Shown: positions 2 to 54,800 of the stretch, in pieces
Layout of the letters: the number at the start of each line of letters is the position of its first letter
Numbering within the stretch: position 1 is the stretch's first letter
Source: Bacteroidota bacterium
GTDB taxonomy: Bacteria; Bacteroidota; Bacteroidia; UKL13-3
Direction of reading: 5' to 3'
DNA: 64,000 bases
NCBI GenBank assembly: GCA_947457395.1
Contig: CANGVA010000001.1
Location: 124,001 to 188,000, forward strand
Program-made: the position numbers and the translations under genes
Notes under the pieces: model-generated
What the model was told of the DNA's origin: nothing
Database searches by the model: none
The model's input: the letters and a program-made list of their open reading frames with translations, nothing else

Positions 2-3000
2 TTTATTTCATTTGATACCTGCCGCATAAATAACGGTGCATATGGAGCATTTTTTACTTCATCCGGCAGCAGTACTTTGGGTCAAAGTTCACAAACGCCA
101 ACTTTTAATAATTGTGATTTTACCAATCAGTATGCCTATGGTATTTACCTTTCAAATATGGAAGGCGTGAGAATGACAAGGAACAGGATACAAACCAATT
201 CAGCCTTTATTTCATACGCAGGTATTTATAACTATTGGATTACAATTCAGGCAGATTTCAGTAGGCCATTAATTACACAAAATATTATTTCAGGAGGGGC
301 AGGTGGCTTTGGTATATATAATAATTATCTAGGTGTAAATTCATCCATGTCTGTTGCACGCAGGCCACTCATCGCGAACAACATGGTTTCAATTGGCACA
401 GGTGCTAATGCTACAAATGGAATATATGATGCTAATAGCAATTGGGCAGATTATTTCCATAATACTGTAAATATTGGATGTAGCCAAACCGGAAATACAT
501 CGGCAGCCGGCTGCTTTGTTTCTACATCGTATGGTAACTCAACAATCCTCAATAATATATTTGCAGCTTCTAATGGTGCGCCTGCTTTCAGAATGGATAA
601 TAATACCTTTTATCCAACCTGTAACTTCAATAACTTTTATACCACCGGACCTAATTTAGCATTTCTTTCTTCATCTCCTTTTGCATCAATGCCTGCTTGG
701 AGAGTTGCTTCCGCAAGAGATGCCAACTCCGTTAACCTTCCTCCCAACTTTCTTTCATTAACAGATTTACGTATTACTTCTGGCTGTATAAATGGTACCC
801 TAATTGCCGGACTTAATACAGATATTGATGGGAAAACAAGGTCAAATCCTCCTGATATAGGTGCATCAGAATTTACCGGTTCCATTCTTAACGATATTGG
901 TTTATCGATGTTGCAATCTCCAACTATTCCTTTTTCACCGGGCTTGCAAGATATACGGGTTGTGGTGAGTAACTATGGTTCAAACACTGTGTCATCAGCA
1001 ACAGTAAGATACCGTGTAAATGGTGGCCTACCTGTTACAGCGTCATATAGTGGTGCGTTGGTTGCTTGCGATACTGCAGGTATTTTATTTACCGGTGCAA
1101 ACAGAGTAAATTTTGTATTGGGTACAAGCTATATGCTACAGATTTGGACTGAGCAACCGAATGGTGTAGCAGATAATAACCGCACAAACGATACCATTAC
1201 AGTTACAATCTGTCCTGCATTAAATGGTCCTTATACCATTAATCCTTCAGGCAGTGGCCCAACAAATTTTACCTCTTTTTCGGCAGCAGCGGCAGCACTT
1301 AATTGCGGAGGCATGAATGGTCCTGTAACCTTTACGGTATCACCTGGCATATACAATGAGCAATTTACACTGAGCGGAATTCAGGGTCTTTCAGCGGTTA
1401 ACCGACTTACCATTAATGGTGTGAGTGCAGCAAACAGAACCATCACATTTAACCCAACCGTCAATTCAATGGGTCATACAATCAGGATACAGAATGCACC
1501 TTTTGTAAGTATCAGAAACCTAACCATTCTTTCCTCAGGTGCAAGCTTTGGTGCACCTGTACATATCCTTGGTTCGAGCAGTAACGCTTCAGTTAAAAAC
1601 TGTATCATTGGCTTTACGGGCAGTGCTGTGAGCAGCACATCATCGGCATATAATGCTGTAATCATTAATAACAATGCTGATGTTACCAATCCTACAGGAA
1701 CAGGTTCAGCAGGATCGGGTATTGAGATAGATAGTAATAATATCCGATTTGGGTTTTATGGTATTTGTATAAGCGGACAAACCAATACACCATACTTAAA
1801 CAGCATATTCGTTCGTAATAATGTTATTGATAGTGCATTTTCGTCAGGTATTTACACCTACTATACAGAAGCATGTAAGTTTTCTAGTAATACCATTCGT
1901 ATGCGTATTACAGGTAACACCAATTCGTTTGGCATGAGTCTTAATTTTGGCTTCTCATCAAACAGCACCTTATTTCATGAGATTGTTGGTAATGCTATTT
2001 ATAATGCAGGTCAATATGGTATTTATAATTACTATAATACTAATCCATCCTCTGCAAGAGGGCGCTTTTACAACAACGTAATTGGTGGGGGTTTCCGCGC
2101 TACCAATGCGTGTGGCATATACTGGCAATATTCTGACTTCTGGGATATCTTTCATAATAGTGTTGTATTGGATGTAAATACTACATCTGCACAGAACGCT
2201 GCATTATTCCTTGATCATTTCAGCACTTTTAATTTAGATATCAGAAATAATCATTTTGTTTATGCAGGTACAGGAGGAAGCGGACTGCCTTTGTTTAGCA
2301 ATAGCGTATTAACCGGGCTTGATTATAACAACTATTTTAACCAGGCAGGCACAAACCTTTTATTTAGATCCGGTATCACATATACTGCCTCAACATACCA
2401 AACAACAGCTGGAGGAGGTGTGAATTCCAGAAATGTAAATCCTTCTTTTGCTTCTAATTTTAATCTGCGCAACGGAGGTTGTATAAAAGGCATAGCTATT
2501 CCGGCTGTCACAACAGATATAGAAGGAATTCTTAGAAATTCTCCTCCGGATGTCGGTGCATATGAATCACGAAATAATGATGCGGGGGTGGTTGCTGTTC
2601 TTTCTCCGGTTCCACCTATTGCTCCAGGCTCTCAGAATATAAGTGTACAGGTAAAGAATTTTGGTTCAAATGTGATTAACACCTTAAGTATTGCTTATTC
2701 TGTTAATGGCAGTGCTCCTGTTACTCAAAATGTATCAGCACTTAATTTACAACCGTGTAGCACAACCACAATTGTTTTTAGCGGAGCCCAACAGTTTAAC
2801 TTTACACCTGGCAGTTCTAATATTGTTGCCTATAGTGCCCAACCCAATGGTACATCAGATGTAAATAGAAGCAATGATACAATTAATATCAATCTCTGTG
2901 GTCCGCTTAATGGTTCTTATACCATTAATCCAAATGGTACAGGGGCTTCCAATTTCCCATCATTCAATGCTGCAATAGCAGCTATGCAGTGTGCAGGCAT

Positions 3001-6000
3001 AACCGGACCTGTCGTATTTAATGTTGCAGCGGCCACTTATAATGAGCAAGTAGATATTCCTGCAATTAGTGGGGCAAATGCTGCTAATACTATCATTTTT
3101 GATGGTGGAGACGGTAACGCCACAAATCGTATACTTACTTTTGCAGCAAGTATTAATAACGCTCGTCATACCCTGCGTTTTAATAATTGCCAGTTTGTAA
3201 CGGTTAGAAACTTAACCATACAAACAACAGGTACATCATTGGGTTGGGGTGTACATTATTTTGGCAATGCACACAATAACAGGATTAGCAATTGCAGGAT
3301 TAATATTGCAGGACCCAATGCGCCAACCAGTGCAAGCACATCCTTTATTGGTATTGTAGGAAGCAATTCAGCTACGAGCGAAAACAGCACGGTACAGATA
3401 CTAAATGCGGTGATTGATTCAAGCACTATAAACAATGGTTATTATTCAATTATATTCAGAGGAAGTTCGGCATCTATCTCTACTGGATTAACAATTCGTA
3501 GTAATAATTTATTTGCTTCATTTTTTTATGGTATATACAATGAAAACCATGACAGTGTGAGCATGCTGAACAATACCATTACGGGGCGTATGTTGGCACC
3601 ACTTAATACCAATGGATATGGTATATATCTGGCCAATATGAACTCTTCTGGAGGTCGCAGATTGGATATTAGTGGCAATACGATTTATGATGTAAGTGCA
3701 TATGGTATCAGCATTAACAGTTCATCAAATAGTGCATCGCGTAATAGGTTATGGAATAATATGATAGGTGGAGGATTTAGCTCCCCAAATGCAACAGGCA
3801 TCTCCTTTAATAGCTCAAATAATTGGGATATTTTCCATAATACCGTTAATCTAGATTTCCCAACCTCCAACCAGTCTGCATCAGCTTTGTATATTGCGTT
3901 TGGAAGCAATTTGAGTACCCGTAATAATATACTCGTATATACTGCTTCATCAGGTTCCGGTTTACCTTATTATGGTATAGTAAATTCTTCTTATTCAGTT
4001 TCCAGTGCGTTTAACTTTAATATGTTTTTTAAACAAGGCATTACCTCCACCGGAACACTCATCTATCATGGAAATAATTTTACCCCGATTAACTTTATCG
4101 GAGGAAACGGATCTAATCTTAACTCCATTTTAAATGCCCCTATATTTTTAAGTAGCAAAAATCTACGTATATATGATGGATGCTTTAATGGTGATAGCTT
4201 GGGAGTAACAACCGATATTGATGGAAATCTACGCAGCAGCTTTGGAGATATGGGCGCTGATGAAGTTCCAACGGGCACTAATGATATTGGCGTTAGAACA
4301 CTACTTAATCCTTCAATTCCTCTTTCACCGGGCCTGCAGGATATCAGGGTAATTATTAAAAATTATGGCACCAATACGATAACCGGTGGAACAGTTAAAT
4401 ATAGTATCAATAATGCTGCGCCAATATCGGCAGTTTTTACAGATACACTAACTCCTTGTGATACGGCAATTGTAATATTTACCGGTGCAAATCAGTTTAA
4501 TTTTGTTGCAGGTAGTGTATACTCAATTAAGGTATATACGGAGCAACCAAATGGCACGTCCGATACATATAACCTGAATGATACATTTAGCACGGGAACA
4601 CTCTGTACTGCAATTTCCGGTTCATTTACGATAAATCCGGCAGGTTCCGGTTCTACTAATTATACTTCATTTGATGCAGCAATTACGGCACTGCAATGCT
4701 CAGGGGTTAGCGGACCGGTAACATTTAATGTGGCTGCAGGAACGTATAATACCCAAGTTGTCATACCTTCTATACCAGGCACATCTATCACAAATACGAT
4801 TACGTTTACTGGTGCCGGTAGAAATAATACAATAGTAACTTTTGCCGCAACTTCTAATGCAGCAGCGCACACCATCCGCTTAATAAATACAGGGTTCATT
4901 AATATCCAGAACATGACCATTGCCGGAACAGGAAATAGCAATGCATGGCCTGTGCACATCATGAACGCCTCAAATATTAAGGTCAGGAACTGTCGCATAG
5001 AAATTACAGGAAATGGTGCAGCAGGAACCAATACAGCATTTGTTCCGGTTATGGTAAACGGATCAACCACATCCGCAACTACCCAAACACTAACCGATAG
5101 CATTGAGATTGACTCAAACATTATAAATGGGGGCTTTGCAAGTGTATGGATTTATAACAACAACGGTGCAAATAATAGAATCAGATGGAATACGCTGAAT
5201 AATCCATTTTATTATGGAGTATATGCCTTTATTATAACCGAGTTAAAGGTAATAGGTAATACCATTAACATGCTGCCATCAGGCAATATTAACAGCACGG
5301 GTGTATACATGCAAAGTTGTAATGCTTCTACAGGGCAGGTGCATGAAATATCAGGAAATCAAATTTTTGATATGGGGCAGTATGGCATATATTGTGGTTT
5401 TTCTTACGGCATGTTTAGTAGCCCATCTCGTATGGTTAATAATATGATTACCGGCTTCCGTAATACAAGTGCACATTATGGAATATACGCTGAGTACTGC
5501 GGAAGCTGGGGAATTTGGTTTAACTCCATTCTCTCTGATACCATTAGTAGTAATCCAAACGGAGCGCTTCATCTAACCAATTCCAATCAAATAGATGTAC
5601 GTAATAATATTCTTGCCGTAAATTCCTCAGCATCTTCTCAACTTCCTTTTTATGCTGCAACGGCCGGAAATGTTTCTGGATTAAACTATAACAACTACTT
5701 TAAACCAGGTACTTCCAACCCACTTATATTTGTTGGTATTAATTATAACAGTAGCAATTTTATCGGAGGCGGTGGATATAACCTGAACTCAATCAGCCGT
5801 GATCCATTCTTTGTTTCAAGAAAAGATTTACACATCAATAACACTTGTAACAATGGTTTACAAATTGCAGCTGTTACAACTGATTTGGATGGGCAATTGC
5901 GATCTAATCCGCCTGACATGGGTGCGGATGAATTAACTGGTGGTATTTCAAATAATGCAGGTGTAAGTGCAGTAATTTCTCCGGTAGTACCATTAAACTC

Positions 6001-9000
6001 CGGCCCACAAAATATTTCTCTTATTGTATCTAATTTGGGCAATAATATGATTACAGGAGTTAATGTTCATTACTCTGTTAACAATGCAACCCCTGTTACC
6101 TTGTTCGTGCCAGATACCATTTTACCGTGCGATACCCAAGTGGTTATATTCTCAGGAGCAAACCAATATAATTTTGCTCCTGGAAGTGCGTACACTATCA
6201 AAGCATATACATCACTGCCAAATGGATTGGCAGATAATAATAACTTGGATGATACGCTAATCGTTGGTCCAATTTGCCCTGCCATGAGCGGAAATTATAC
6301 TATTGATGCTTCAGGAAGCGGTCTAAATAACTTCACTACATTTGGAGCAGCTATTGCTGCATTGCAATGCGCAGGTATCAGTGATGATGTTTTCTTCACC
6401 GTATCAAATGGCACCTTTAATGAGCAAGTTAATATAGGGGCTGTAGTTGGGGTTAATGATACTACACGTATTTGGTTTAATGGTAGCTCCCAGGCTGGCA
6501 CCATTCTATCATTTAATCCAACTTCGGCTACAGCTGCTCACACATTACGTATCAATAATTCGCCATTTGTTTCATTTAGAAATATGACTATTCAGAGCAC
6601 AGGAATTAATCTTGGAGTGCCAGTTCATATTATGGGAGCTTCTCATGAGGCGCGCATTAAAAACTGTAATATCAGAATAACAGGAACTGGTGCAAGTTCA
6701 GGAAATATTGGTTACATCGGTATACTCATAAATGGGGGGTCAGATGTAAATAATCCGCTTAGTGGTGCTGCCTCTACCTTTATTAATAATGTTGAGATTG
6801 ACAGCAATCGTATTACTTCAGGATATTACTCTATTTTGATTAATGGTAGAACAAGTATTCCTTATGCAAATAATATTCGCATCAGAAGAAATAGTATTGA
6901 TAGTGCATTCTACTATGGTGTTTATGTAAATTATATAGATGCTTTCAAATTCCTAAACAATAATCTTAATATGCGCGTAAGCGGAAACGCTAATAGCCAG
7001 GGATTGTATTTGAATAATCTATATACTACCGGTACTAATTTTCATGAGATATCAAACAACCGTATACACGGAGCAGGCCAAAACGGTATTTATAGTTGGT
7101 TCTGCAGCAATACTTCTACAGCAAGAGGAAGGATGATTAACAATATGATTGGCGGAAGCTTTAGAACAAGCAATGCAATGGCTGTAAACTGGAACTACTC
7201 TGATTTCTGGGATATTTGGAACAACACTATGGTAATGGATGTAGCTACTTTCTCTGCTCAGAATGCCGTGATGTATATCAATGGTTTTACTAACCAGAAT
7301 AATTTAGATATCAGAAATAATGTATTCTATTATGCCGCCCTTACCGGTACAGGTTTGCCTTTCTACGTGAATGGGCCTGCATCCTTTACCGCTTTTAATT
7401 TCAATAATTTTTATAAGCCGGGAACCTTACCCGTAAATTTAATTTTCATTAATGGAACCACTTATACAACTGCAAATTATCAAGGTGGTGGAGGATTTAA
7501 TGTCAACTCGGTTTCTTCAATGAATTCGTATCTGGGTATTCGTGATTTTCATTTAACCACTCCTGGTGCAAAGGGAACAACCATAGCACAGGTAGCAACA
7601 GATATAGATGGGGAAAGTAGACAAACACCTCCTGATCTTGGCGCAGATGAATATTACAGTTCTATGGATCTGGGTGTATTAACCATTGATTCTCCCGCTG
7701 CAGCCGGCTTCTGCAGTGGTTCTAGAAATGTAGTTGTAAGGTTAAGGAATTATGGAAATCAGAATATCATTTCTGCCAACGTTCATGTATTGGTGAACGG
7801 TATTTTACAACTTACAACACCATGGACAGGTAATTTGGGCCTAGGTGCTACCAGCGGTTTATTTAACGTAGGTCAAGTATCCTTGAGTTCCGGTAATTCA
7901 GTTATTACTGCATATACTTCTTCTCCTAATGGTGGTACGGATATTAATGCAAGTAATGATAGTGCAACGCGGGTTTATTCCGTTACTCAGACTGTTGTTC
8001 CAACCATTGCTATAACTGCATCAAGTACTGCAATATGCAGTGGAACAAATGTTACCTTACGCGCTACCTATACAAATGGTGGTGTAACTCCTTTAATACA
8101 ATGGCGCAGAAATGGTGTTACGTTTGGTAATTCCGATTCTATTGTAACCAATGCGCTGGCTAATAATGACTCCATAATTTGCATTCTTTCTTCATCTGCA
8201 GCATGTGCTACACCATCTTCAGTGAATTCAAATTCAATCATTATGAATGTAAATACCACTCAGCCTGCAGTGGTAAACATAACTGCTACTTCCACCAATA
8301 TCTGCACCGGTCAAACAGTTACATTTACAGCCACACCAACCAATGGTGGTACAAGACCTTTTTATCAATGGAAACGTAACGGGTTAAATGTGGGTGCCGA
8401 TACCAATATTTATCAATCAAGTGGTTTGAATAACGGAGACAGTATTACTGTAATTATGAACTCAAATTTGGGCTGTGCAAGTCCAAATATTGATACATCA
8501 AACTTCATTAAGATATCGGTCAATAACTATGTATCTCCTGCAGTTAGCATTGTGGCAAGTGCTACTTCAATTTGTTCTGGGGTTGTTGATACATTTACCG
8601 CAACTCCTGTTAACGGTGGTATAGCTCCAGTTTATCAATGGAAGCGAAACGGATTAAATGTTGGAACCAATAACAACCGCTATATTACAGCAGCGCTTGC
8701 TAATAATGATACCATACAGGTAGTGATGACATCTAATGCAGCCTGTGCCCTGCCTGCTCAGGTTAATTCAAATAAAATTGGTGTGGGTGTAACAACTTCT
8801 GTTACACCAACTATTGTTATGACGCCAACATCAACCAGTATTTGTAGCGGTACACTCGTTACCTTTACTAGTGCCATTACCAACGGAGGAAGCACACCGA
8901 GCTACCAATGGAAGAAAAACAATCTGAATGTAGGAACGGATACCAATATTTACACCGATAATAATCTGCAAAATAATGATAGTATTTTTGTTGTGTTAAC

Positions 9001-10633
9001 TTCAAATGCAGTTTGTGCAACATCTGCTAACGTAAACTCAAATAAGGTTCGCATTACTGTGAATCCTGTATCAACACCTGATGTAACTATTAATGCATCT
9101 ACAAATAATATTTGCAGCAGCACTCCTGTTCAGTTTAGCGCTATACCGGTAAATGGTGGAACCACGCCAAGTTATCAGTGGAGGCGCAATGGAGTTGTTG
9201 TAGGCTCGGATAGTATACGCTTTACGTCTGCCTCACTAAGTAATGGAGATACAATTCGGGTTATTATGACAAGTAATGCACTTTGCCGGACCAAGAATAG
9301 TGATACCTCAAACTTCATAGTTATGCAAATTACTCCTACTGTTACACCAAGCATCAATGTGTCGGGTACAGCAACAACTATTTGTGCAGGTACAGTAGTT
9401 AAGTTTTCAGCTAATGTAACAGGTGGAGGAACTCTACCTGCTTATCAATGGAAACGTAATGGGGTAAACGTTGGCATTGACAGTTCAGGATTTACTACAG
9501 CTGCTATTAATAATAATGATACATTTTATGCCGTACTCACGTCTAATGTAGCTTGTGCTACCGTTGGCTCTGCATTATCCAATAAACTCCTTATGCGTGT
9601 CAATACTACCATACCTGTTTCGGTGAGCATTACCTCAACCGGAAATAATATTTGCCAGGGTGCACCTGTAACTTTCAGTGCTACCTATACCAATGGCGGA
9701 TTTACACCATCATTCCAATGGCAAAGAAACGGAGTGAATGTGGGATCTGATAGCATGTCATTCACCACTGCTGCGTTAAGCAATGGCGATTCAGTAAGGG
9801 TTATTTTCCGTTCAAGTTTAAATTGCCCTTCCAATCCGGCATTGCCTTCAACTGCCATAGGTATGTCTATAACGCCTTCTGTTACACCTGATATTACTGT
9901 AAATTCAACAGCAACCAATGTTTGCAAAGGAGCAGTGGTTAAGTTTATAGCTTCTGCATTGAATGGCGGAACAGCACCTTCTTTTGCATGGTTTAGAAAT
10001 GGAATTCAGGTAGGTATGGATAGTTCGGGTTATACTACAGATGCCATTAACTCCGGAGATCAGTTTCTTTGCGTACTTACATCTAATTCAGTATGCGCTA
10101 CCAAAATAAATGACACATCTAATATATCAGTAATAACAGTTAAGCCCTTACCTGTTAAACCTGTAATCACAAGAAGTAATGATACATTAATTGCTTCATC
10201 TGTTGGTTTAAGCTATCAGTGGTTTAAAGATGGTGCAATTATAGCCGGTGCATCAACACGTAAATACAGGTTTACGCAGAATGGCTCCTATACCGTTTCG
10301 GTAGATAGCAATGGTTGTCCTAGTATCTCAAACTCTTTTGTGGTTAGTAATGTTGGTATGGATGATTTAGGTGCAATTGGGTCCATCTCCGTTTATCCAA
10401 ACCCAACAACTGCAAGTGTCAATATAGACGTATTGTTCAATTCATCTGAGGCAACCCAATTAATTGTTCTGGATATGTTTGGCAAAATTATTCATCAGTC
10501 AAGCAAGGGTATTGTAGATAAAATCAGTGATGAAAATATAGCACTTGACTTATTTGCTGATGGCATTTACTTTATTCAAGTTGTTCATGGCGATGCAGTT
10601 GCTACCAAGAAAATTTTAAAAACAACCAGATAG
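2..10633 (+). CDS. Giant secreted beta-helix/Ig-repeat protein with T9SS sorting domain, 5' partial
   Basis: The reading frame is open from base 2, so the start lies upstream; the TTG at 77 is not a real start. More than 3,500 residues are visible. The order is: end of one parallel beta-helix module, four full modules of about 560 residues, eight Ig-like repeats of about 90 residues, one degenerate repeat, and a C-terminal domain beginning with VYPNPTTASVNID at about 10390 and ending in KKILKTTR. That tail is typical of type A T9SS cargo, so I infer export across the outer membrane and attachment to the cell surface or release. Each beta-helix module is rich in Asn-Asn turns and short YGIY-type rungs and ends with a DIDG...PPD(I/M)GA(D/S)E signature followed by a CARDB-like domain. 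The role is probably adhesion or glycan contact; no catalytic motif was recognised. A stem-loop terminator follows directly. Confidence 0.9.
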   Translation, partial: FISFDTCRINNGAYGAFFTSSGSSTLGQSSQTPTFNNCDFTNQYAYGIYLSNMEGVRMTRNRIQTNSAFISYAGIYNYWITIQADFSRPLITQNIISGGAGGFGIYNNYLGVNSSMSVARRPLIANNMVSIGTGANATNGIYDANSNWADYFHNTVNIGCSQTGNTSAAGCFVSTSYGNSTILNNIFAASNGAPAFRMDNNTFYPTCNFNNFYTTGPNLAFLSSSPFASMPAWRVASARDANSVNLPPNFLSLTDLRITSGCINGTLIAGLNTDIDGKTRSNPPDIGASEFTGSILNDIGLSMLQSPTIPFSPGLQDIRVVVSNYGSNTVSSATVRYRVNGGLPVTASYSGALVACDTAGILFTGANRVNFVLGTSYMLQIWTEQPNGVADNNRTNDTITVTICPALNGPYTINPSGSGPTNFTSFSAAAAALNCGGMNGPVTFTVSPGIYNEQFTLSGIQGLSAVNRLTINGVSAANRTITFNPTVNSMGHTIRIQNAPFVSIRNLTILSSGASFGAPVHILGSSSNASVKNCIIGFTGSAVSSTSSAYNAVIINNNADVTNPTGTGSAGSGIEIDSNNIRFGFYGICISGQTNTPYLNSIFVRNNVIDSAFSSGIYTYYTEACKFSSNTIRMRITGNTNSFGMSLNFGFSSNSTLFHEIVGNAIYNAGQYGIYNYYNTNPSSARGRFYNNVIGGGFRATNACGIYWQYSDFWDIFHNSVVLDVNTTSAQNAALFLDHFSTFNLDIRNNHFVYAGTGGSGLPLFSNSVLTGLDYNNYFNQAGTNLLFRSGITYTASTYQTTAGGGVNSRNVNPSFASNFNLRNGGCIKGIAIPAVTTDIEGILRNSPPDVGAYESRNNDAGVVAVLSPVPPIAPGSQNISVQVKNFGSNVINTLSIAYSVNGSAPVTQNVSALNLQPCSTTTIVFSGAQQFNFTPGSSNIVAYSAQPNGTSDVNRSNDTININLCGPLNGSYTINPNGTGASNFPSFNAAIAAMQCAGITGPVVFNVAAATYNEQVDIPAISGANAANTIIFDGGDGNATNRILTFAASINNARHTLRFNNCQFVTVRNLTIQTTGTSLGWGVHYFGNAHNNRISNCRINIAGPNAPTSASTSFIGIVGSNSATSENSTVQILNAVIDSSTINNGYYSIIFRGSSASISTGLTIRSNNLFASFFYGIYNENHDSVSMLNNTITGRMLAPLNTNGYGIYLANMNSSGGRRLDISGNTIYDVSAYGISINSSSNSASRNRLWNNMIGGGFSSPNATGISFNSSNNWDIFHNTVNLDFPTSNQSASALYIAFGSNLSTRNNILVYTASSGSGLPYYGIVNSSYSVSSAFNFNMFFKQGITSTGTLIYHGNNFTPINFIGGNGSNLNSILNAPIFLSSKNLRIYDGCFNGDSLGVTTDIDGNLRSSFGDMGADEVPTGTNDIGVRTLLNPSIPLSPGLQDIRVIIKNYGTNTITGGTVKYSINNAAPISAVFTDTLTPCDTAIVIFTGANQFNFVAGSVYSIKVYTEQPNGTSDTYNLNDTFSTGTLCTAISGSFTINPAGSGSTNYTSFDAAITALQCSGVSGPVTFNVAAGTYNTQVVIPSIPGTSITNTITFTGAGRNNTIVTFAATSNAAAHTIRLINTGFINIQNMTIAGTGNSNAWPVHIMNASNIKVRNCRIEITGNGAAGTNTAFVPVMVNGSTTSATTQTLTDSIEIDSNIINGGFASVWIYNNNGANNRIRWNTLNNPFYYGVYAFIITELKVIGNTINMLPSGNINSTGVYMQSCNASTGQVHEISGNQIFDMGQYGIYCGFSYGMFSSPSRMVNNMITGFRNTSAHYGIYAEYCGSWGIWFNSILSDTISSNPNGALHLTNSNQIDVRNNILAVNSSASSQLPFYAATAGNVSGLNYNNYFKPGTSNPLIFVGINYNSSNFIGGGGYNLNSISRDPFFVSRKDLHINNTCNNGLQIAAVTTDLDGQLRSNPPDMGADELTGGISNNAGVSAVISPVVPLNSGPQNISLIVSNLGNNMITGVNVHYSVNNATPVTLFVPDTILPCDTQVVIFSGANQYNFAPGSAYTIKAYTSLPNGLADNNNLDDTLIVGPICPAMSGNYTIDASGSGLNNFTTFGAAIAALQCAGISDDVFFTVSNGTFNEQVNIGAVVGVNDTTRIWFNGSSQAGTILSFNPTSATAAHTLRINNSPFVSFRNMTIQSTGINLGVPVHIMGASHEARIKNCNIRITGTGASSGNIGYIGILINGGSDVNNPLSGAASTFINNVEIDSNRITSGYYSILINGRTSIPYANNIRIRRNSIDSAFYYGVYVNYIDAFKFLNNNLNMRVSGNANSQGLYLNNLYTTGTNFHEISNNRIHGAGQNGIYSWFCSNTSTARGRMINNMIGGSFRTSNAMAVNWNYSDFWDIWNNTMVMDVATFSAQNAVMYINGFTNQNNLDIRNNVFYYAALTGTGLPFYVNGPASFTAFNFNNFYKPGTLPVNLIFINGTTYTTANYQGGGGFNVNSVSSMNSYLGIRDFHLTTPGAKGTTIAQVATDIDGESRQTPPDLGADEYYSSMDLGVLTIDSPAAAGFCSGSRNVVVRLRNYGNQNIISANVHVLVNGILQLTTPWTGNLGLGATSGLFNVGQVSLSSGNSVITAYTSSPNGGTDINASNDSATRVYSVTQTVVPTIAITASSTAICSGTNVTLRATYTNGGVTPLIQWRRNGVTFGNSDSIVTNALANNDSIICILSSSAACATPSSVNSNSIIMNVNTTQPAVVNITATSTNICTGQTVTFTATPTNGGTRPFYQWKRNGLNVGADTNIYQSSGLNNGDSITVIMNSNLGCASPNIDTSNFIKISVNNYVSPAVSIVASATSICSGVVDTFTATPVNGGIAPVYQWKRNGLNVGTNNNRYITAALANNDTIQVVMTSNAACALPAQVNSNKIGVGVTTSVTPTIVMTPTSTSICSGTLVTFTSAITNGGSTPSYQWKKNNLNVGTDTNIYTDNNLQNNDSIFVVLTSNAVCATSANVNSNKVRITVNPVSTPDVTINASTNNICSSTPVQFSAIPVNGGTTPSYQWRRNGVVVGSDSIRFTSASLSNGDTIRVIMTSNALCRTKNSDTSNFIVMQITPTVTPSINVSGTATTICAGTVVKFSANVTGGGTLPAYQWKRNGVNVGIDSSGFTTAAINNNDTFYAVLTSNVACATVGSALSNKLLMRVNTTIPVSVSITSTGNNICQGAPVTFSATYTNGGFTPSFQWQRNGVNVGSDSMSFTTAALSNGDSVRVIFRSSLNCPSNPALPSTAIGMSITPSVTPDITVNSTATNVCKGAVVKFIASALNGGTAPSFAWFRNGIQVGMDSSGYTTDAINSGDQFLCVLTSNSVCATKINDTSNISVITVKPLPVKPVITRSNDTLIASSVGLSYQWFKDGAIIAGASTRKYRFTQNGSYTVSVDSNGCPSISNSFVVSNVGMDDLGAIGSISVYPNPTTASVNIDVLFNSSEATQLIVLDMFGKIIHQSSKGIVDKISDENIALDLFADGIYFIQVVHGDAVATKKILKTTR
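1211..7990 (+). repeat. Four tandem beta-helix + CARDB-like modules, about 1.7 kb each
   Basis: Modules begin at a conserved Cys codon at 1211, 2897, 4604 and 6275, giving spacings of 1686, 1707 and 1671 bases. Each opens with a C-x-x-(L/M/I)-x-G-x-(Y/F)-TI motif and a G-(S/T)-G-x3-(N)-(F/Y) segment. The partial module at 2-1210 would be a fifth. The protein sequences are clearly homologous but the DNA has diverged, so the duplications look old. Confidence 0.85.
7995..10145 (+). repeat. Eight Ig-like repeats of about 270 bp
   Basis: Each unit carries an (I/V)C-x-G motif, an NGG turn, a (Y/F)QW-(K/R)-(R/K)NG core, a (N/S)-x-D-(S/T) segment and a SN-x-x-C motif. Such arrays are common near the C terminus of large Bacteroidota adhesins, where they act as stalks. 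A ninth, degenerate unit with SYQWFKDG lies at about 10150-10350, just before the sorting domain. Confidence 0.85.
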
Positions 10634-25634: not shown

Positions 25635-25736
25635 GCACCAAACACTTAATTTTACTACATTCTAATTAAAAATTTAAAATATTCAGCGCGAGAAAGTTGC
25701 CACCATCAAACTTTTTTGATTTAAGTGGTGTTTTTC

Positions 25737-25817: not shown

Positions 25818-26534
25818 ATGGAACATTTAAAAATTGCAAGCGACAATTACGTTGCTTTTACGTTCTTTATCGGAACAATGGCCATGATGGCAGCCTCAGT
25901 TTTCTTTTTCTTCGAATTAAACAACACATCGAGCAAATGGAGAACATCAGTATTGGTATCTGGTTTAATTACTTTCATCGCAGCAGTTCACTACTACTAC
26001 ATGAGAGGTTACAACCTTGAAACCGGTGATTCACCAACTTTCTTCAGGTATGTAGATTGGATTCTTACTGTACCTTTAATGTGTGTTGAATTTTATTTGA
26101 TTACCAAAAAGGCAGGTGCTAAAGTATCACTCCTTTGGAAACTCATTTTTGCTTCTCTTGTTATGTTAGTTACTGGTTATTTCGGTGAAACCATCGATCG
26201 CGATAACAGCGTAATGTGGGGAGTAATTTCAGGTATCGCTTACTTCTACATTGCATACTTAGTATGGTTTGGTGAAGTTGCAAGTCTTTCACAAAATGCA
26301 GGTCCGCAAGTTGCAAAAGCAACACGTATCCTTGCTTGGTTCGTATTAGTTGGCTGGGCTATCTATCCTTTAGGATATATATTGGGTACTCCAGGCGGAT
26401 TGTTTGGTGTTCAGTTGGTATCTGATCCAGCTGCTGCATCACACTCTATGGATATCGTTTATAACATTGCTGACGCAATTAACAAAATCGGTTTTGGCTT
26501 AGTTATTTATAGTTTATCCAGAAGCGAAGACTAA
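25818..26534 (+). CDS. Proteorhodopsin, light-driven proton pump
   Basis: The 238-residue protein has seven membrane helices. Helix C reads RYVDWILTVPLMCVEFYLI, giving the proton-pump DTE triad: Asp80 (acceptor), Thr84 and Glu91 (donor). Met88 is at the colour-tuning position (105 in the reference green proteorhodopsin), typical of green-absorbing Bacteroidota pumps. His58 pairs with Asp80. Lys223 in DAINKIGFG binds retinal. In helix E the position matching Gly156 of xanthorhodopsin is Gly135 (MWGVIS), which may open a window for a carotenoid antenna. The ATG at 25818, behind an A-rich stretch, is the likely start, although the frame is open to a GTG at 25725. A terminator separates it from the retinal-synthesis fusion gene. 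Confidence 0.97.
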   Translation: MEHLKIASDNYVAFTFFIGTMAMMAASVFFFFELNNTSSKWRTSVLVSGLITFIAAVHYYYMRGYNLETGDSPTFFRYVDWILTVPLMCVEFYLITKKAGAKVSLLWKLIFASLVMLVTGYFGETIDRDNSVMWGVISGIAYFYIAYLVWFGEVASLSQNAGPQVAKATRILAWFVLVGWAIYPLGYILGTPGGLFGVQLVSDPAAASHSMDIVYNIADAINKIGFGLVIYSLSRSED

Positions 26535-26560
26535 GATTTTAAAATCTGAATCTGATAAAG

Positions 26561-26598
26561 AAAAGGGAGGGTGTGATTTAAAACTACCTCCCTTTTTT
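26561..26598 (+). terminator. Strong terminator after proteorhodopsin
   Basis: A perfect 10-bp stem AAAAGGGAGG / CCTCCCTTTT with a 16-base loop is followed by a T run. It lies 27 bases after the rhodopsin stop codon and would let rhodopsin mRNA greatly exceed read-through into the fusion gene. Confidence 0.9.
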
Positions 26599-26641: not shown

Positions 26642-28672
26642 ATGCAGGCAATTACTTCCGTAGAAATAAATACTACTTCAGATGGGTATGATTATATCTT
26701 CTGCGGTACCGGTGCATCTGCCACTCTATTGCTATTGGAGCTTGAAAGAATCAACCTGCTGACCAACAAACGGATCCTACTTATAGACCCAGATAAGAAA
26801 GATAAGCGAGATAAAACGTTCTGTTTTTGGGCGGATGTAGAAGAGCCGATTTCGGTTCACTTAAATCAACTCATATCGCATGACTGGGATAAAGTTGCGC
26901 TTTCAGAAAAGGATTTTGAGCACCTATGGCCCCTGAGATATAATCATATTTCAAGTATTGATTTATACAATAGACTACATGAACTAACTAAAAAATATAA
27001 CTGGGATAAAATATCAACGTATGCCGATAAGGTTGCTGCAGATGAGCAGGGCCCTTTTGTTATTGTCAACAACAGAAAAATAAGGGCAGCGAAGGTGTTT
27101 GACTCCAGACCCCCCTCATACAAGCAGCCTGTAAACGGAGAAACACATATATACCAAAGTTTTGTTGGCTGGATGATTGAAACGGAAACTGAAATGGAAA
27201 AGTCCACTTCATTCCGATTTATGGATTTTCAGATTGAGCAGCAAGGCTCAACGCAGTTTGTTTATGTGCTGCCATTCTCTTCAAATAAAGCTTTGATAGA
27301 GGTTACACGCTTCGGTGAAGAAATCATTAACCGTGCTGATGCAGAAGAATTGCTGAGATTATATATAGAAAGACATTATGGAAAATATGTGGTGCTGGAT
27401 ATTGAAACCGGCTGCATTCCCATGAGTAATGCAGGGATTGAACAAACCGATATGCCTGGCATCACTTCTCTGGGTACCCGCAATTATCAGATTAAGCCTA
27501 GTACCGGTTATGCATTTAAAAATATGTATTACCATGCACGCGACATTGCAAGTGCAATAAAAAACAATATATCAACTGATGCATTAAATAGATCTCACCA
27601 GTTATCAGGCAAGGGCCGATTTGCTTTTTATGACGACCTATTGCTGGATATATTAAAGAATAAGCCACAGGAGGGTAAAGGCATTTTTATTGCATTGCTG
27701 CAAAAGGTAGAAACAAGAAAAATACTAACTTTTCTTGATGAGAAAACGAGGCTTAAGGACGATATAGCCATTTTCTGGCAATTACCGTGGTGGCCATTTG
27801 TAAGTACATTGCTTAAAAAGTGTCCGGGGTATTCCTGGTTTCGACCAACCGTATTAACGTTTATCACGATCCTCCTGATGCTTGTCGGCAGCTATGGTGA
27901 ATGGCAAAGCAATATCGCCTATGCATTATTTTTTTCGGGCTTGGTTCTTGTTGGCATTCCGCATGGGGCAGTAGATCATTTACTCGAAACAGGTAAGTGG
28001 GATTTGAAAGAGGCCCCTGTATTTATCTTAAAGTATCTTTCCCTATCAGCATTGATGGGATTAATGTGGTATTTATTGCCTCAGCTGGCACTCTTGGTAT
28101 TTCTGGCCTATTCCTCATGGCATTTTGGCCAGGCCGATGGCAAAAAATGGCAATTTTCAAAGCCTGCTTACATGCTATGGGGGGTAATGGTTTTGTTTTA
28201 CATTTTAGGAACCCATTTACCTGAAACCAATTCAATATTAAACTTAATGGGTAATACTACCCTTCCATGGTCTTGTCCTGTTTGGGTTATGCTACCATGG
28301 CTGGCATGGGCACTTTTTCGTAAACAGGCATCATTTGCTTTAACGATTATTTGGCTCATGCTTTCTGCCCAACTACCGCTGCTGATTTCATTTGGTTTGT
28401 ACTTTATTGGTCAGCATAGCCTTACGGGTTGGCAGCATATCCGTTCGCATTTACAGATAAGTCATAGCCGCATCTGGCTGCATTCACTGCCTTTTCATGC
28501 AGGGGCATGGCTGCTACTGGCAGGTTTCCTTTTTTTCTGGCCTGCAGTTCATCCTTTTCAGGAACTTAATCGCTGGGCTGTATTTTTTATATTCATTGCC
28601 TGCATCAGTTTTCCGCATACCATTTATATGAATGCGGTATACAGGGGTAAAGGGGTAAGCTCCGACAGGTAA
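26642..28672 (+). CDS. crtY-blh: Fusion of lycopene cyclase-like domain and Brp/Blh beta-carotene 15,15'-dioxygenase
   Basis: One uninterrupted 676-residue frame. Residues 10-385 resemble CrtY-type FAD-dependent lycopene beta-cyclases: Rossmann strand YDYIFCGTGAS, LLIDPD, KTFCFWAD near 59, SFVGWMIETE, YVLPFSSNKALIEVT near 208, and KPSTGYAF near 285. Residues 395-676 are a Brp/Blh integral-membrane domain with several helices and its conserved His-containing motifs: GIPHGAVDH near 438, WHFGQAD near 493, QHSLTGWQH near 591 and FPHTIYM near 657. Together the halves could turn lycopene into beta-carotene and cleave it to two retinals for the adjacent rhodopsin. The cyclase half is divergent: the third Gly of GxGxxG is Ala, and the usual Gly-Gly before TKPSxGY reads RNYQ. 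Other crt genes are absent from the window. Confidence 0.9.
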   Translation: MQAITSVEINTTSDGYDYIFCGTGASATLLLLELERINLLTNKRILLIDPDKKDKRDKTFCFWADVEEPISVHLNQLISHDWDKVALSEKDFEHLWPLRYNHISSIDLYNRLHELTKKYNWDKISTYADKVAADEQGPFVIVNNRKIRAAKVFDSRPPSYKQPVNGETHIYQSFVGWMIETETEMEKSTSFRFMDFQIEQQGSTQFVYVLPFSSNKALIEVTRFGEEIINRADAEELLRLYIERHYGKYVVLDIETGCIPMSNAGIEQTDMPGITSLGTRNYQIKPSTGYAFKNMYYHARDIASAIKNNISTDALNRSHQLSGKGRFAFYDDLLLDILKNKPQEGKGIFIALLQKVETRKILTFLDEKTRLKDDIAIFWQLPWWPFVSTLLKKCPGYSWFRPTVLTFITILLMLVGSYGEWQSNIAYALFFSGLVLVGIPHGAVDHLLETGKWDLKEAPVFILKYLSLSALMGLMWYLLPQLALLVFLAYSSWHFGQADGKKWQFSKPAYMLWGVMVLFYILGTHLPETNSILNLMGNTTLPWSCPVWVMLPWLAWALFRKQASFALTIIWLMLSAQLPLLISFGLYFIGQHSLTGWQHIRSHLQISHSRIWLHSLPFHAGAWLLLAGFLFFWPAVHPFQELNRWAVFFIFIACISFPHTIYMNAVYRGKGVSSDR

Positions 28673-47085: not shown

Positions 47086-49008
47086 TTAAGCATTTACTTT
47101 TTCATTCATCATGGCTTTGGCAGTTTTAATCATGCCGTTTACATCATAACCACATTCTGCATATAACTCTTTTTGCTCACCATGTTCTACAATATCATCA
47201 GGCATACCCAGCATCTTTAATTCTGCTTGGTATCCATGTGCAGCCATAAACTCTAATACGGCACTACCCATTCCACCAACAATGGTGCCATCTTCAACCG
47301 TAATTACCTTTTGGTATTTGTTAAATACCTCATGCAACATGGCTTCATCAATTGGTTTTACAAATCGCAAGTCATAGTGGCCTACTTTAATACCTTCTGC
47401 AGCAAGTGCATCTGCAGCTTGTGCTGTTAAATTACCGATATGGCCAATCGTAATAAAAGCTATTTCGTCTCCGTCACGCAATTTGCGCCCTTTACCTATC
47501 TCAATTTCTTTAAAAGGTGTTCTCCACTCAGGCATCACACCATTGCCCCGTGGGTAACGAATGGAGAAAGGTCCGGCATTTTTTTCTAATGTAGCTGTAT
47601 ACATCAGGTTTCTTAGCTCTTCTTCATTCATCGGAGCGCTTACCACCATATGTGGTATGCATCGCATAAAAGGAATATCAATCATGCCATGGTGTGTAGG
47701 TCCATCGGCACCGGCAATACCAGCCCTGTCCATACACAATATTACATGTAATTTTTGCAAGGCCACATCATGTACTACCTGATCATATGCACGCTGCATA
47801 AATGATGAATAGATATTGCAGAAAGGTATAAGGCCTTGTGTTGCTATTCCTGCGCTAAAAGTTACTGCATGCTGCTCTGCAATGCCCACATCAAAGGCGC
47901 GTTTAGGCATAGCCTTCATCATGATATTCATGGAAGAACCGGAAGGCATGGCAGGCGTAATGCCTACAATTTTTTCGTTTTTCTCAGCCAATTCAACCAA
48001 GGTATGTCCAAACACATCTTGGTATTTTGGAGGTTGCGGCTTATCTGAAACAGATTTATATATTTCACCGGTTACTTTATCAAACAAACCCGGTGCATGC
48101 CATTTGGTTTGGTCTTTTTCTGCCAGGGCATAACCTTTACCTTTTACGGTAATGCAATGCAATAATTTAGGTCCGGGTATTTTCTTTAAATCATTCAAGA
48201 CTTTTACCATATGGTTTACGTCATGCCCATCAATGGGGCCAAAATAACGGAAACGCAGCGACTCAAACATATTGCTGTGTTTAAGCACGCCTGCTTTAAT
48301 GGTATCATGCACTTTGGAAATAATGTCCTGTGATATATGCCCGATTTTGTTCAGACGATCAAGCGCCTTCCACACATCATCTTTAAATTTATTGTAGGTA
48401 GGAGAGGTGGTAATATCGGTTAAATATTCTTTGAGTGCGCCCACGTTGGGATCAATACTCATACAATTATCATTTAACACCACAATAAGGTTTGAATCTT
48501 CTACACCTGCGTGGTTTAGCCCCTCAAAAGCCAAGCCGGCCGTCATGGCACCATCGCCAATAACGGCTATATGCTGTCGGTCAAGTTCACCTTTTAATCT
48601 GGAGGCAACAGCCATACCCAAAGCTGCGGATATTGAAGTGGATGAATGGCCCACACCAAAGGTATCATACGCACTCTCACTGCGTTTTGGGAAGCCAGAA
48701 ATACCTTTATAAACCCTGTTTGTATGGAAAACATCTCTACGGCCCGTAAGTATTTTATGGCCATAAGCCTGATGGCCTACATCCCAAACCAATTGGTCGT
48801 AAGGTGTATTAAAGGCATAATGCAGGGCCACGGTTAGTTCCACCACGCCCAAACTGGCACCAAAGTGGCCCCCGTAAACAGAGACCATATCAATGATATA
48901 TTGCCTTAACTCGGCACATACCTTTACCAAGTCCTCCTCCTTAACCTTGCGTAAATCAGCAGGATAATGAATGGGGCTTAGCAGTTCTCCCGGTTTTATT
49001 TCCATCAT
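47086..49008 (-). CDS. dxs: 1-deoxy-D-xylulose-5-phosphate synthase
   Basis: The 640-residue thiamine-diphosphate enzyme condenses pyruvate and glyceraldehyde 3-phosphate, the first step of the MEP isoprenoid pathway. It has the Dxs signature DVGHQAYGHKILTGR, the cofactor motif GDGAMTAGLAFEGLN and NDNCMSI, the second-domain Glu in GIAEQHAV and the phosphate site DRAGIAGADGPTHHG. Length is standard. This pathway supplies carotenoid and retinal precursors for the rhodopsin system at 25.8-28.7 kb, as well as quinones. Two Met codons at the N terminus are both possible starts. Confidence 0.96.
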   Translation of the reverse strand: MMEIKPGELLSPIHYPADLRKVKEEDLVKVCAELRQYIIDMVSVYGGHFGASLGVVELTVALHYAFNTPYDQLVWDVGHQAYGHKILTGRRDVFHTNRVYKGISGFPKRSESAYDTFGVGHSSTSISAALGMAVASRLKGELDRQHIAVIGDGAMTAGLAFEGLNHAGVEDSNLIVVLNDNCMSIDPNVGALKEYLTDITTSPTYNKFKDDVWKALDRLNKIGHISQDIISKVHDTIKAGVLKHSNMFESLRFRYFGPIDGHDVNHMVKVLNDLKKIPGPKLLHCITVKGKGYALAEKDQTKWHAPGLFDKVTGEIYKSVSDKPQPPKYQDVFGHTLVELAEKNEKIVGITPAMPSGSSMNIMMKAMPKRAFDVGIAEQHAVTFSAGIATQGLIPFCNIYSSFMQRAYDQVVHDVALQKLHVILCMDRAGIAGADGPTHHGMIDIPFMRCIPHMVVSAPMNEEELRNLMYTATLEKNAGPFSIRYPRGNGVMPEWRTPFKEIEIGKGRKLRDGDEIAFITIGHIGNLTAQAADALAAEGIKVGHYDLRFVKPIDEAMLHEVFNKYQKVITVEDGTIVGGMGSAVLEFMAAHGYQAELKMLGMPDDIVEHGEQKELYAECGYDVNGMIKTAKAMMNEKVNA

Positions 49009-51884: not shown

Positions 51885-54800
51885 ATGAAAAAACAGTTTT
51901 ACTCCTTAATCTTAACTCTTTTCATCATCAGTACTTCACAAACCTTATTGGCTCAATTTAGTTGGCAACAATCAGCCCCTAGTATTAGTGGCCTCGCCAC
52001 AGATGAAAATGAAGGTGCTGCACTAAGCTTTGCGGCTGACGGCAACACATTTGCTACTACTTCTGTAAACAACGGCAATACTCAAAACTTGCAAGGCAGA
52101 GTAAGAATTTTCACCAAATCGGGTTCAAATTGGGTACAAAAAGGTGGCAACTTAGTTGGTGCTGCCAATGGTGATTTGTTTGGCCGGTCCGTGGCATTAG
52201 ATTCTACCGGCAATACTATTGTTGTAGGCGCACCATATAACGATGCCGGTTTTGGTAATTTCTCAAGTGCCGGACATGTGCGTGTTTTCAGCTGGGTGAG
52301 TGGCGCATGGGTACAAAAAGGCGCAACTCTTTTGGCCGATTCAGCTAGAGATAATTTTGGCTATTCGGTAAGTATTTCTTATGATGGAAATACCGTTGCT
52401 ATTGGTAGTCCCTTTCGATTAAACAAAGGTAGGGTAAAAGTATACCGTTGGGTAAGTGGCGTCTGGGTTCAATTAGGCGCTAATCTTGACGGAACAAATA
52501 ATCTTGATGGGTTTGGGAATGCAGTGAGTTTAGACCGAACAGGTAATATACTTGCTATTGGTGCTCCATTTAATGGATCTGGAGGCTCAGAAGCCGGACA
52601 AGTAAAAATTTTTAACTGGAACGGAACCGCCTGGACACAACGGGGTGGAAATATCAACGGAAGTGCTTCGGATTATTCAGGCACCAACTTAAGCCTTTCT
52701 GCTAATGGTAACCGGGTTGCTATTGGGTCACCTCAAGATTTGATACTCGGTGGATTTGGTATTGCACGCGTATTCGATTTTAATGGCACAGCCTGGGCGC
52801 AAGCCGGTTCATCACTAGTATCGCCACATTTTGCTGATGCCTGGGGAGATGCCATCCACATTTCGGGCGATGGAAGCCGGTTAGCTGTTGGCGCGAGAGC
52901 AGATGTACCCGGAAACGAAAGAGGCCGTGCACAAGTATTTGGCTGGAGTGGCACTAACTGGTTAGCCGTAGGCGACACGCTAAAAGGCGATTCAGCCGGA
53001 AACGAATTTGGTGTAGCTGTGGCGCTCTCGTACACGGGTAATTCGTTGTTGGTAGGTGCTACACGTGCGCGTGGCAGCGCCCCTTTTAGTGGTTTGGTAC
53101 GCACGTACGAATACACCAATAATACGTGTGTAGCTACCAATAGCACCATCAATCCTACGCAGTGTGGTGGCACGTTTACTTCACCAAGCGGTAAAATCTA
53201 TACTGTAAGTGGTACTTATCGCGATACCATACAAAATGTAGCGGGTTGCGACAGTATCATCACCATCATACTCACTATAAACAGCATCAATACTACAATT
53301 ACACTGAATGGCAATACGTTCACAGCCGTTGATTCCACAGCTACCTACCAGTGGTTAGATTGTGCAAACAACAATGCGATTATTCCTAATGCTACCAGCC
53401 GTTCATTAACAGCACAAGGTTGTGCCGGACAATCCTTTAACTACGCTGTTGTTTTAAGTAAAAATGGCTGTGTAGATACATCTGCTTGCCAACAACTTTC
53501 ACTTAGCTTGACACAACAAGGGCAAGATATTAATGGCGAAGCTCCAAATGATGAATCAGGCGGGTCTGTTTCCCTATCTGCCAATGGCCGAGTAATGGCT
53601 ATTGGAGCAATCCGCAATTCTGGAAACGGCACCAATGCAGGCCATGTAAGGGTATATGCCTGGAATGGTACTGCTTGGGTGCAGCGGGGAAGTGATATAG
53701 ATGGCGAAGCGGCTGATGATTTTTCAGGTTGGTCTGTTTCCCTCTCAGCCAATGGAGATGTAGTGGCTATTGGAGCAATTTCCAACGATGGAAACGGCAT
53801 CAGTGCAGGTCATGTAAGGGTATATGCCTGGAATGGAACTGTTTGGGTGCAACGCGGTAACGATATTGATGGAGAGTCAGAAAGCGATCAATCAGGTTTT
53901 TCCGTTTCACTTTCAGCCAATGGAGAGGTAGTAGCTATTGGGGCATATTTAAACGATGGAAACGGCACCAATGCAGGCCATGTAAGGGTATATGCCTGGA
54001 ATGGTACTGCTTGGGTGCAACGCGGAGCCGATATCAATGGTGAAGCTGCTGCTGATTTGTCAGGTTGGTCTGTTTCCCTCTCCGCTAATGGAGAAATATT
54101 GGCTATTGGGGCGCCATACAATAATGGAAACGGCACCTATGCAGGCCATGTAAGGGTATATGCCTGGAATGGTGCTGCTTGGGTGCAACGCGGAGCCGAT
54201 ATCAATGGCGAAGCTGCTAATGATAGGTCAGGTCAGTCTGTTTCCCTTTCAGCCAATGGAGATGTAGTGGCTATTGGGGCGCCATTCAACGATGGAAACG
54301 GCATCAGTGCAGGTCATGTAAGGGTATATGCCTGGAATGGTACTGCTTGGGTGCAGCGGGGTGCTGATATAGATGGTGAAGCTGGAGATGATGGGTCAGG
54401 TGAGTCTGTTTCCCTTTCAGCCAATGGAGATATATTGGCTGTAGGAGCGCCATTCAATGATGGAAACGGCAGCACTGCAGGCCATGTAAGGGTATATGCC
54501 TGGAGTGGCAGTGCTTGGGTGCAGCGGGGTGCTGATATAGATGGCGAAGCTGCTAATGATAGGTCAGGTCAGTCTGTTTCCCTTTCAGCCAATGGAGATG
54601 TAGTGGCTATTGGGGCGCCATTCAACGATGGAAACGGCACTAATGCAGGCCATGTAAGGGTATATAACTTTTGTAATTTCGAACGATTGGTAGTACATTT
54701 AGGCCCCGACCGCAGCATTTGTGGTAGTGCAGGTTCAGTTGTATTGGATGCAGGCAACCCGGGCAGTGCTTATTTATGGAGCACGGGTGCAACCACACAA

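Follow-up and report, generated by a model that had tools for sequence, protein, structure and literature searches.

Proteorhodopsin operons of flavobacteria and marine proteobacteria carry the genes of the lycopene cyclase CrtY and of the oxygenase Blh separately. The locus described here shares with these operons the enzyme families, the predicted chemistry and the rhodopsin neighbourhood, but it encodes the two enzymes as one polypeptide, which forms a clade of its own. The locus belongs to a stretch of 64,000 nucleotides from a Bacteroidota genome (contig CANGVA010000001.1, positions 124,001 to 188,000), hereafter called the window. All coordinates refer to the window and its features are collected in Table 1. 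The first-pass annotation of this DNA had described a frame joining a CrtY-like domain to a Brp/Blh domain downstream of a proteorhodopsin, and had suggested that beta-carotene passes straight from the cyclase to the oxygenase and may never accumulate. The architecture, the coordinates of the frame and the domain names are correct, and the gene does adjoin that of the proteorhodopsin (107 nt downstream of it, on the same strand). The metabolic part of the description has to be revised, since a second cyclase, of the CrtYcd type, is present, and the fusion is best read as a retinal branch.

Table 1. Features of the crtY-blh locus (coordinates of the window)
Feature	Coordinates	Strand	Residues	Description
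Proteorhodopsin gene	25818..26534	+		238 aa from probable ATG; PF01036 Bac_rhodopsin, 4.3e-42
Terminator-like hairpin and T run	26559..26598	+		GGGAGG...CCTCCCTTTTTT; between the rhodopsin and fusion genes
crtY-blh fusion gene	26642..28672	+		single open frame of 676 codons, 676 aa
CrtY-type lycopene cyclase half	26690..27808	+	17-389	PF05834 Lycopene_cycl, 2.5e-44
Junction	27809..27940	+	390-433	CrtY end continued directly by transmembrane helix 1 of Blh
Brp/Blh beta-carotene 15,15'-dioxygenase half	27941..28633	+	434-664	PF15461 BCD, 5.7e-31

Several other frames of the window can be recognized by eye. Two very long repetitive frames (77-10633 and 51885-56564, encoding 3518 and 1559 aa) look secreted, and their ends resemble Por secretion tails. 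The motifs DPACGCGNF and NPPF make a 920-aa frame on the minus strand (60694-63456) look like an enzyme in which restriction and modification are combined. A dxs-like gene, whose product would catalyse the opening step of the MEP route to isoprenoids, is found on the minus strand at 47086-49008.

Both halves of the fusion protein are recognized by Pfam profiles far above the cut-offs. PF05834 covers the CrtY half over profile positions 1-378 of 380 (152.3 bits), and the Blh half scores 108.5 with PF15461 (cut-off 28). Of the NCBIfam models, TIGR03753 (Brp/Blh) gives 115.8 bits at a cut-off of 95.25, and the lycopene cyclase models TIGR01789 and TIGR01790 match the CrtY half, each below its own cut-off. 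In the fused proteins H441 (the first histidine of Blh) follows F386 (the last strongly conserved CrtY residue) at a distance of 50-58 aa; in the separate ones the CrtY tail comprises ~10 aa and the Blh lead ~49 aa. The fusion is thus close to plain end-to-end joining, and this comparison of spacing reveals no added linker domain at the junction. The frame runs without a stop or frameshift through the region near residue 390, the place where the first-pass annotation had suggested looking for one, and the junction is in-frame in dozens of other genomes. We collected 64 distinct loci, most of them complete and some cut by contig ends or frameshifted. The presence of the fusion or its pieces at these loci means that the frame of the window is not an assembly artefact; as dozens of independent genomes share the architecture with its conserved spacing, an assembly error or a chance open frame is ruled out practically with certainty.

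How widespread the architecture is had been left undecided in the first-pass annotation, and its distribution has now been mapped in part: the fusion is wide in Bacteroidota (11 families of the class and one outside it) and is therefore no rarity of the host genome. In the host's own family Blh is present in 35 of 64 genomes, and in 29 of these it lies within a frame of at least 660 aa (the order-level search gave the same 64 genomes as the family-level one). Among the 395 genomes of the class sample 72 contain Blh. It is fused in 33 of them, spanning 11 family groups, where a fused gene is defined as Blh in one frame of about 650-720 aa that also matches PF05834. Four further genomes of the class (G322, G344, G383 and G420) seem to be members of the fused clade whose genes are broken by contig ends or a frameshift. 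Outside the class, fused genes were found in one family of the phylum sample (f89). A scan of named genome contigs added nine close relatives, all from metagenome-assembled Bacteroidota. A 958-aa frame of the genome G628 was set aside as a candidate fusion, as Blh forms only a part of it and the region is full of long overlapping frames.

Some genomes have Blh genes of other clades. The genome G044 (loci L007 and L185) has, in addition to the fused gene, an unfused Blh that belongs to another clade and adjoins a second rhodopsin gene in divergent orientation. The single-contig genome G062 from the host's own family has an unfused Blh of a different clade (L172:6574-7362), with neither rhodopsin nor CrtY in the 14 kb that surround it. 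A very divergent Blh group (~70 bits) is represented by L125 (G090; genus g41, family f28) and occurs in genomes with CrtYcd only.

The origin of the fusion can be judged from the trees of its two halves. After removal of four unreliable rows (L197 with its long branch, and three others that were cut or broken), all 58 fused rows fall into a single clade in the tree of CrtY halves (SH-aLRT 81). Two f50 rows, which stood apart in the first CrtY tree, rejoined the others after this removal, and several independent fusions are not needed by the trees. In the tree of Blh halves a single clade holds 57 fused rows together with the unfused L064 (98.8). A strict fused-only Blh clade is disfavoured because L064 is nested inside, although it is not rejected (p-AU 0.08). 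This stand-alone Blh (L064:1477-2325) belongs to the genome G280, which has CrtYcd and no CrtY match, and it looks like the result of a later loss of the CrtY half. Both half-trees are consistent with a single event, and one fusion followed by one loss of the CrtY half would be the simplest reading. Seven genomes of the class have CrtY and Blh as separate neighbours in the same order as in the fusion, and in all seven the frames, when read from their first start codons, share 4 to ~29 nt; the rhodopsin gene lies just upstream in three of the seven. We suppose that the fusion arose once in Bacteroidota, its precursor probably being an operon with overlapping crtY and blh, and that it later moved across family lines. 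In the tree of whole fused proteins the family f1 requires seven or more changes of label on branches with good support. These changes fit transfer across family lines; old duplication and loss could contribute.

In the active site of the CrtY half, G22 and G24 (the dinucleotide G-x-G motif) as well as E220 and T222 (the E-x-T motif) are found in 100% of fused rows and 98-100% of unfused ones. E220 is presumably the functional acidic residue known from CrtY mutagenesis. Monocyclic CrtY enzymes have also been described (PMC2889829, PMC11855829). In the Blh half, the fused clade shows no variation at H441, D445, H494, H592 and H659. Replacement of His21, His78, His188 or His192 in the reference Blh, that of marine bacterium 66A03, lowers the activity to less than 5% (reported in PMC9227343). 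When the 66A03 residues are mapped by motif spacing (and not by alignment of the 66A03 sequence), the equivalents of His21, His78 and His188 are H441, H494 and H592, present in 53 of 53 fused rows. The equivalent of His192 is missing: this position is occupied by G596 in the window protein and by G, A or S in all 53 rows. With the fourth histidine missing, the Blh half could be a poor catalyst or cleave with a different specificity. We consider this quite improbable, as the other three histidines and H659 are invariant and many unfused Bacteroidota Blh (30 of 55 rows) lack the same histidine, which is thus no universal of the Blh family. Furthermore, all members of the fused clade have W597, which is hardly ever seen outside it, and all have H525, which occurs in about a third of unfused rows; their conservation fits a rebuilt site under selection, of which both residues may be part. 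The Blh half of the fused clade is likely to be active; no assayed enzyme of the clade was found in the literature searched.

The host genome (2.54 Mb, 99.96% complete, 34 contigs) was examined through family searches and stretches. It contains a single Blh (BCD) and a single real CrtY, both within the fusion gene. Further carotenoid genes are located on the contig C2. A 150-aa CrtZ-type hydroxylase (PF04116), far from the fusion, is followed after 3 nt by a gene for a 229-aa lycopene cyclase of CrtYcd type (TIGR03462, two stretches, 85.6 bits). The second group on C2 comprises a CrtI-type desaturase, a phytoene synthase-like gene, CrtD (NF042421, 638.8 bits at a cut-off of 500), a CruF-like hydratase and, by eye, an isopentenyl diphosphate isomerase-like gene. 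The set of CrtYcd, CrtZ, CrtD and CruF suggests a monocyclic end product resembling saproxanthin or myxol. The CrtYcd-type gene is unrelated to CrtY, and its presence in the same genome rules out the fusion as the sole lycopene cyclase of the cell.

The second cyclase is a regular companion of the fusion. Another cyclase is encoded in 31 of the 33 fused genomes of the class sample (26 with CrtYcd and 5 with a second CrtY); the two genomes without one have a completeness of 92% and 77%. It is also present in all seven genomes with adjacent unfused CrtY and Blh, which gives 38/40 for fused and adjacent genes combined vs 0/27 for genomes with Blh alone, a class that includes G027, where merely a Blh fragment is found and which could be a decayed carrier. 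Each of these 27 genomes, having Blh without a linked CrtY, contains exactly one type of cyclase, and two cyclases occur in 2 of the 323 genomes of the sample that lack Blh. G094 was excluded from the cyclase counts owing to its weak, broken match. The difference between linked and Blh-alone genomes (Fisher p ~1e-16) is too optimistic, since related genomes are counted as independent; the pattern recurs in each of the 11 families. The second unfused cyclase of the carriers is the reason why the fusion is read as a dedicated retinal branch.

It could also be supposed that the fusion is a general cyclase with an attached oxygenase, which additionally feeds beta-carotene or ring-closed precursors via CrtZ to pigments of the zeaxanthin type, and the CrtZ-like hydroxylase of the host genome agrees with this. 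Such a role is nevertheless improbable: the crtZ-like gene stands directly before the separate CrtYcd gene and distant from the fusion, and a second cyclase is retained in nearly all carriers.

The dedicated branch finds a possible reason in the hydratase CruF (PF04240), which is encoded in 31/33 fused, 7/7 adjacent and 19/27 Blh-alone genomes. CrtY of Nonlabens spongiae produces beta-carotene when acting alone and 1'-hydroxy-gamma-carotene together with CruF (PMC11855829). A single-peptide CrtYcd is a monocyclase, the cited example being that of Algoriphagus, a member of Bacteroidetes (PMC2889829). If a cell with monocyclic pigments is to form retinal via beta-carotene, the closure of the second ring has to be protected. 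CrtYcd is the only cyclase in 19 of the 27 Blh-alone genomes, so CrtY is not always required for retinal; the route there could be cleavage of gamma-carotene or a bicyclic CrtYcd.

We propose that the fusion protein is a bifunctional membrane enzyme forming a dedicated lycopene-to-retinal branch beside the second, unfused cyclase, and that it has a single origin in Bacteroidota with later spread; as a whole, this reading is considered quite probable. The CrtY half would form a ring at either end of lycopene, and the Blh half would split the resulting beta-carotene into two molecules of retinal, supposedly its sole product, for the rhodopsin encoded just upstream. The separate CrtYcd-type cyclase would feed the monocyclic xanthophyll route with CruF, CrtD and CrtZ. 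Tethering of the active sites probably prevents CruF from intercepting the intermediate before its second ring is closed.

True substrate channelling from the cyclase to the oxygenase, such that free beta-carotene never accumulates, would add to the dedicated branch without excluding it. The direct head-to-tail junction with no spacer domain, the single origin and the persistence of the fusion over large divergence are in line with channelling, and the frequent occurrence of CruF in the carriers provides a motive to hide the half-cyclized intermediate. The fusion may, on the other hand, serve stoichiometry or membrane placement alone, and the unfused Blh inside the clade (that of G280) suggests that the Blh half can exist on its own. 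The AlphaFold model of the fusion, built from ten sequences, is too poor for a judgement on the contact between the domains and lends channelling no support (pLDDT 62, pTM 0.44). A Foldseek search with this model gave only loosely similar flavoproteins and no match below 1e-3, and sequence searches of the PDB found no solved relative. We therefore regard channelling as possible and somewhat doubtful, and keep the dedicated branch as the preferred reading.

The rhodopsin gene and the gap that separates it from the fusion deserve separate consideration. The mechanical rhodopsin frame begins with GTG at 25725; homologues begin at MEHLKIASDNYVAF, and for this reason the real start is probably at 25818. 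The DTE motif, read by eye, presumably denotes a proton pump, and M occupies what we take to be the spectral-tuning site. Of 54 loci with sufficient flank, 32 have a rhodopsin gene immediately upstream of the fusion in the same orientation, and 8 others have one elsewhere in the vicinity; at 14 fusion loci with long upstream flanks no rhodopsin gene is nearby. The whole rhodopsin-fusion gap of the window folds with z = -3.35, and none of 200 shuffles is equally good. By a uniform criterion, a hairpin is present in 25 of 28 rhodopsin-fusion gaps, near relatives included, vs 28 of 159 other same-strand gaps of the same loci (p ~2e-13). The gap of the window itself was scored in the folding list and stands outside the gene-pair test owing to a competing frame. 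In many loci the fusion gene starts just 8-35 nt after the T run, which leaves little space for a promoter. We propose that the hairpin acts as a partial terminator or as an mRNA-stabilising stem, which would let the pump outnumber its enzyme. A stem-loop of this kind is known from the puf operon of purple bacteria, where an intercistronic hairpin lies between a light-harvesting structural gene and its less abundant partner. The likeness is no more than an analogy.

Taken together, these observations give a testable rule: a genome with CrtY tied to Blh nearly always has another lycopene cyclase, and a genome with Blh alone has one. The rule suggests that the pump and the membrane pigments are supplied with carotenoids by separate routes. 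The fusion gene can serve as a metagenome marker that tells dedicated from shared retinal synthesis, and its product would offer metabolic engineers one natural protein for the conversion of lycopene to retinal. A bolder idea, to which we give a little less than an even chance, sees in CrtY-Blh a portable kit that consists of one gene and leads straight from lycopene to retinal, out of reach of CruF and the host cyclase, so that rhodopsin and this kit would together turn a lycopene-making bacterium into a phototroph. If so, repeated moves of the kit across Bacteroidota families would help to explain the spread of rhodopsin phototrophy among makers of monocyclic pigments.

Both enzymes and the operon are already known; what appears to be new is the fused clade with its spread, together with the rule on the second cyclase and the conservation of the hairpin. 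A bacterial CrtY-Blh fusion was not found in the literature searched, which covered few subscription papers, and protein databases may well list the domain pair. The closest single-chain protein is the CrtI-CrtB-CrtYcd-Blh protein of Thecamonas trahens (PMC10016063), in which a lycopene cyclase likewise precedes Blh. In contrast to the bacterial fusion, it is a four-domain protein of a eukaryote, and its cyclase is of the membrane CrtYc/d type, unrelated to the FAD-type CrtY; the two fusions are independent. The CrtYB and crtIBY proteins of fungi and thraustochytrids also combine carotenoid enzymes in one chain. They differ in that the cyclase is joined to the preceding phytoene synthase or desaturase, whereas in CrtY-Blh it is joined to the oxygenase that follows it and forms retinal.
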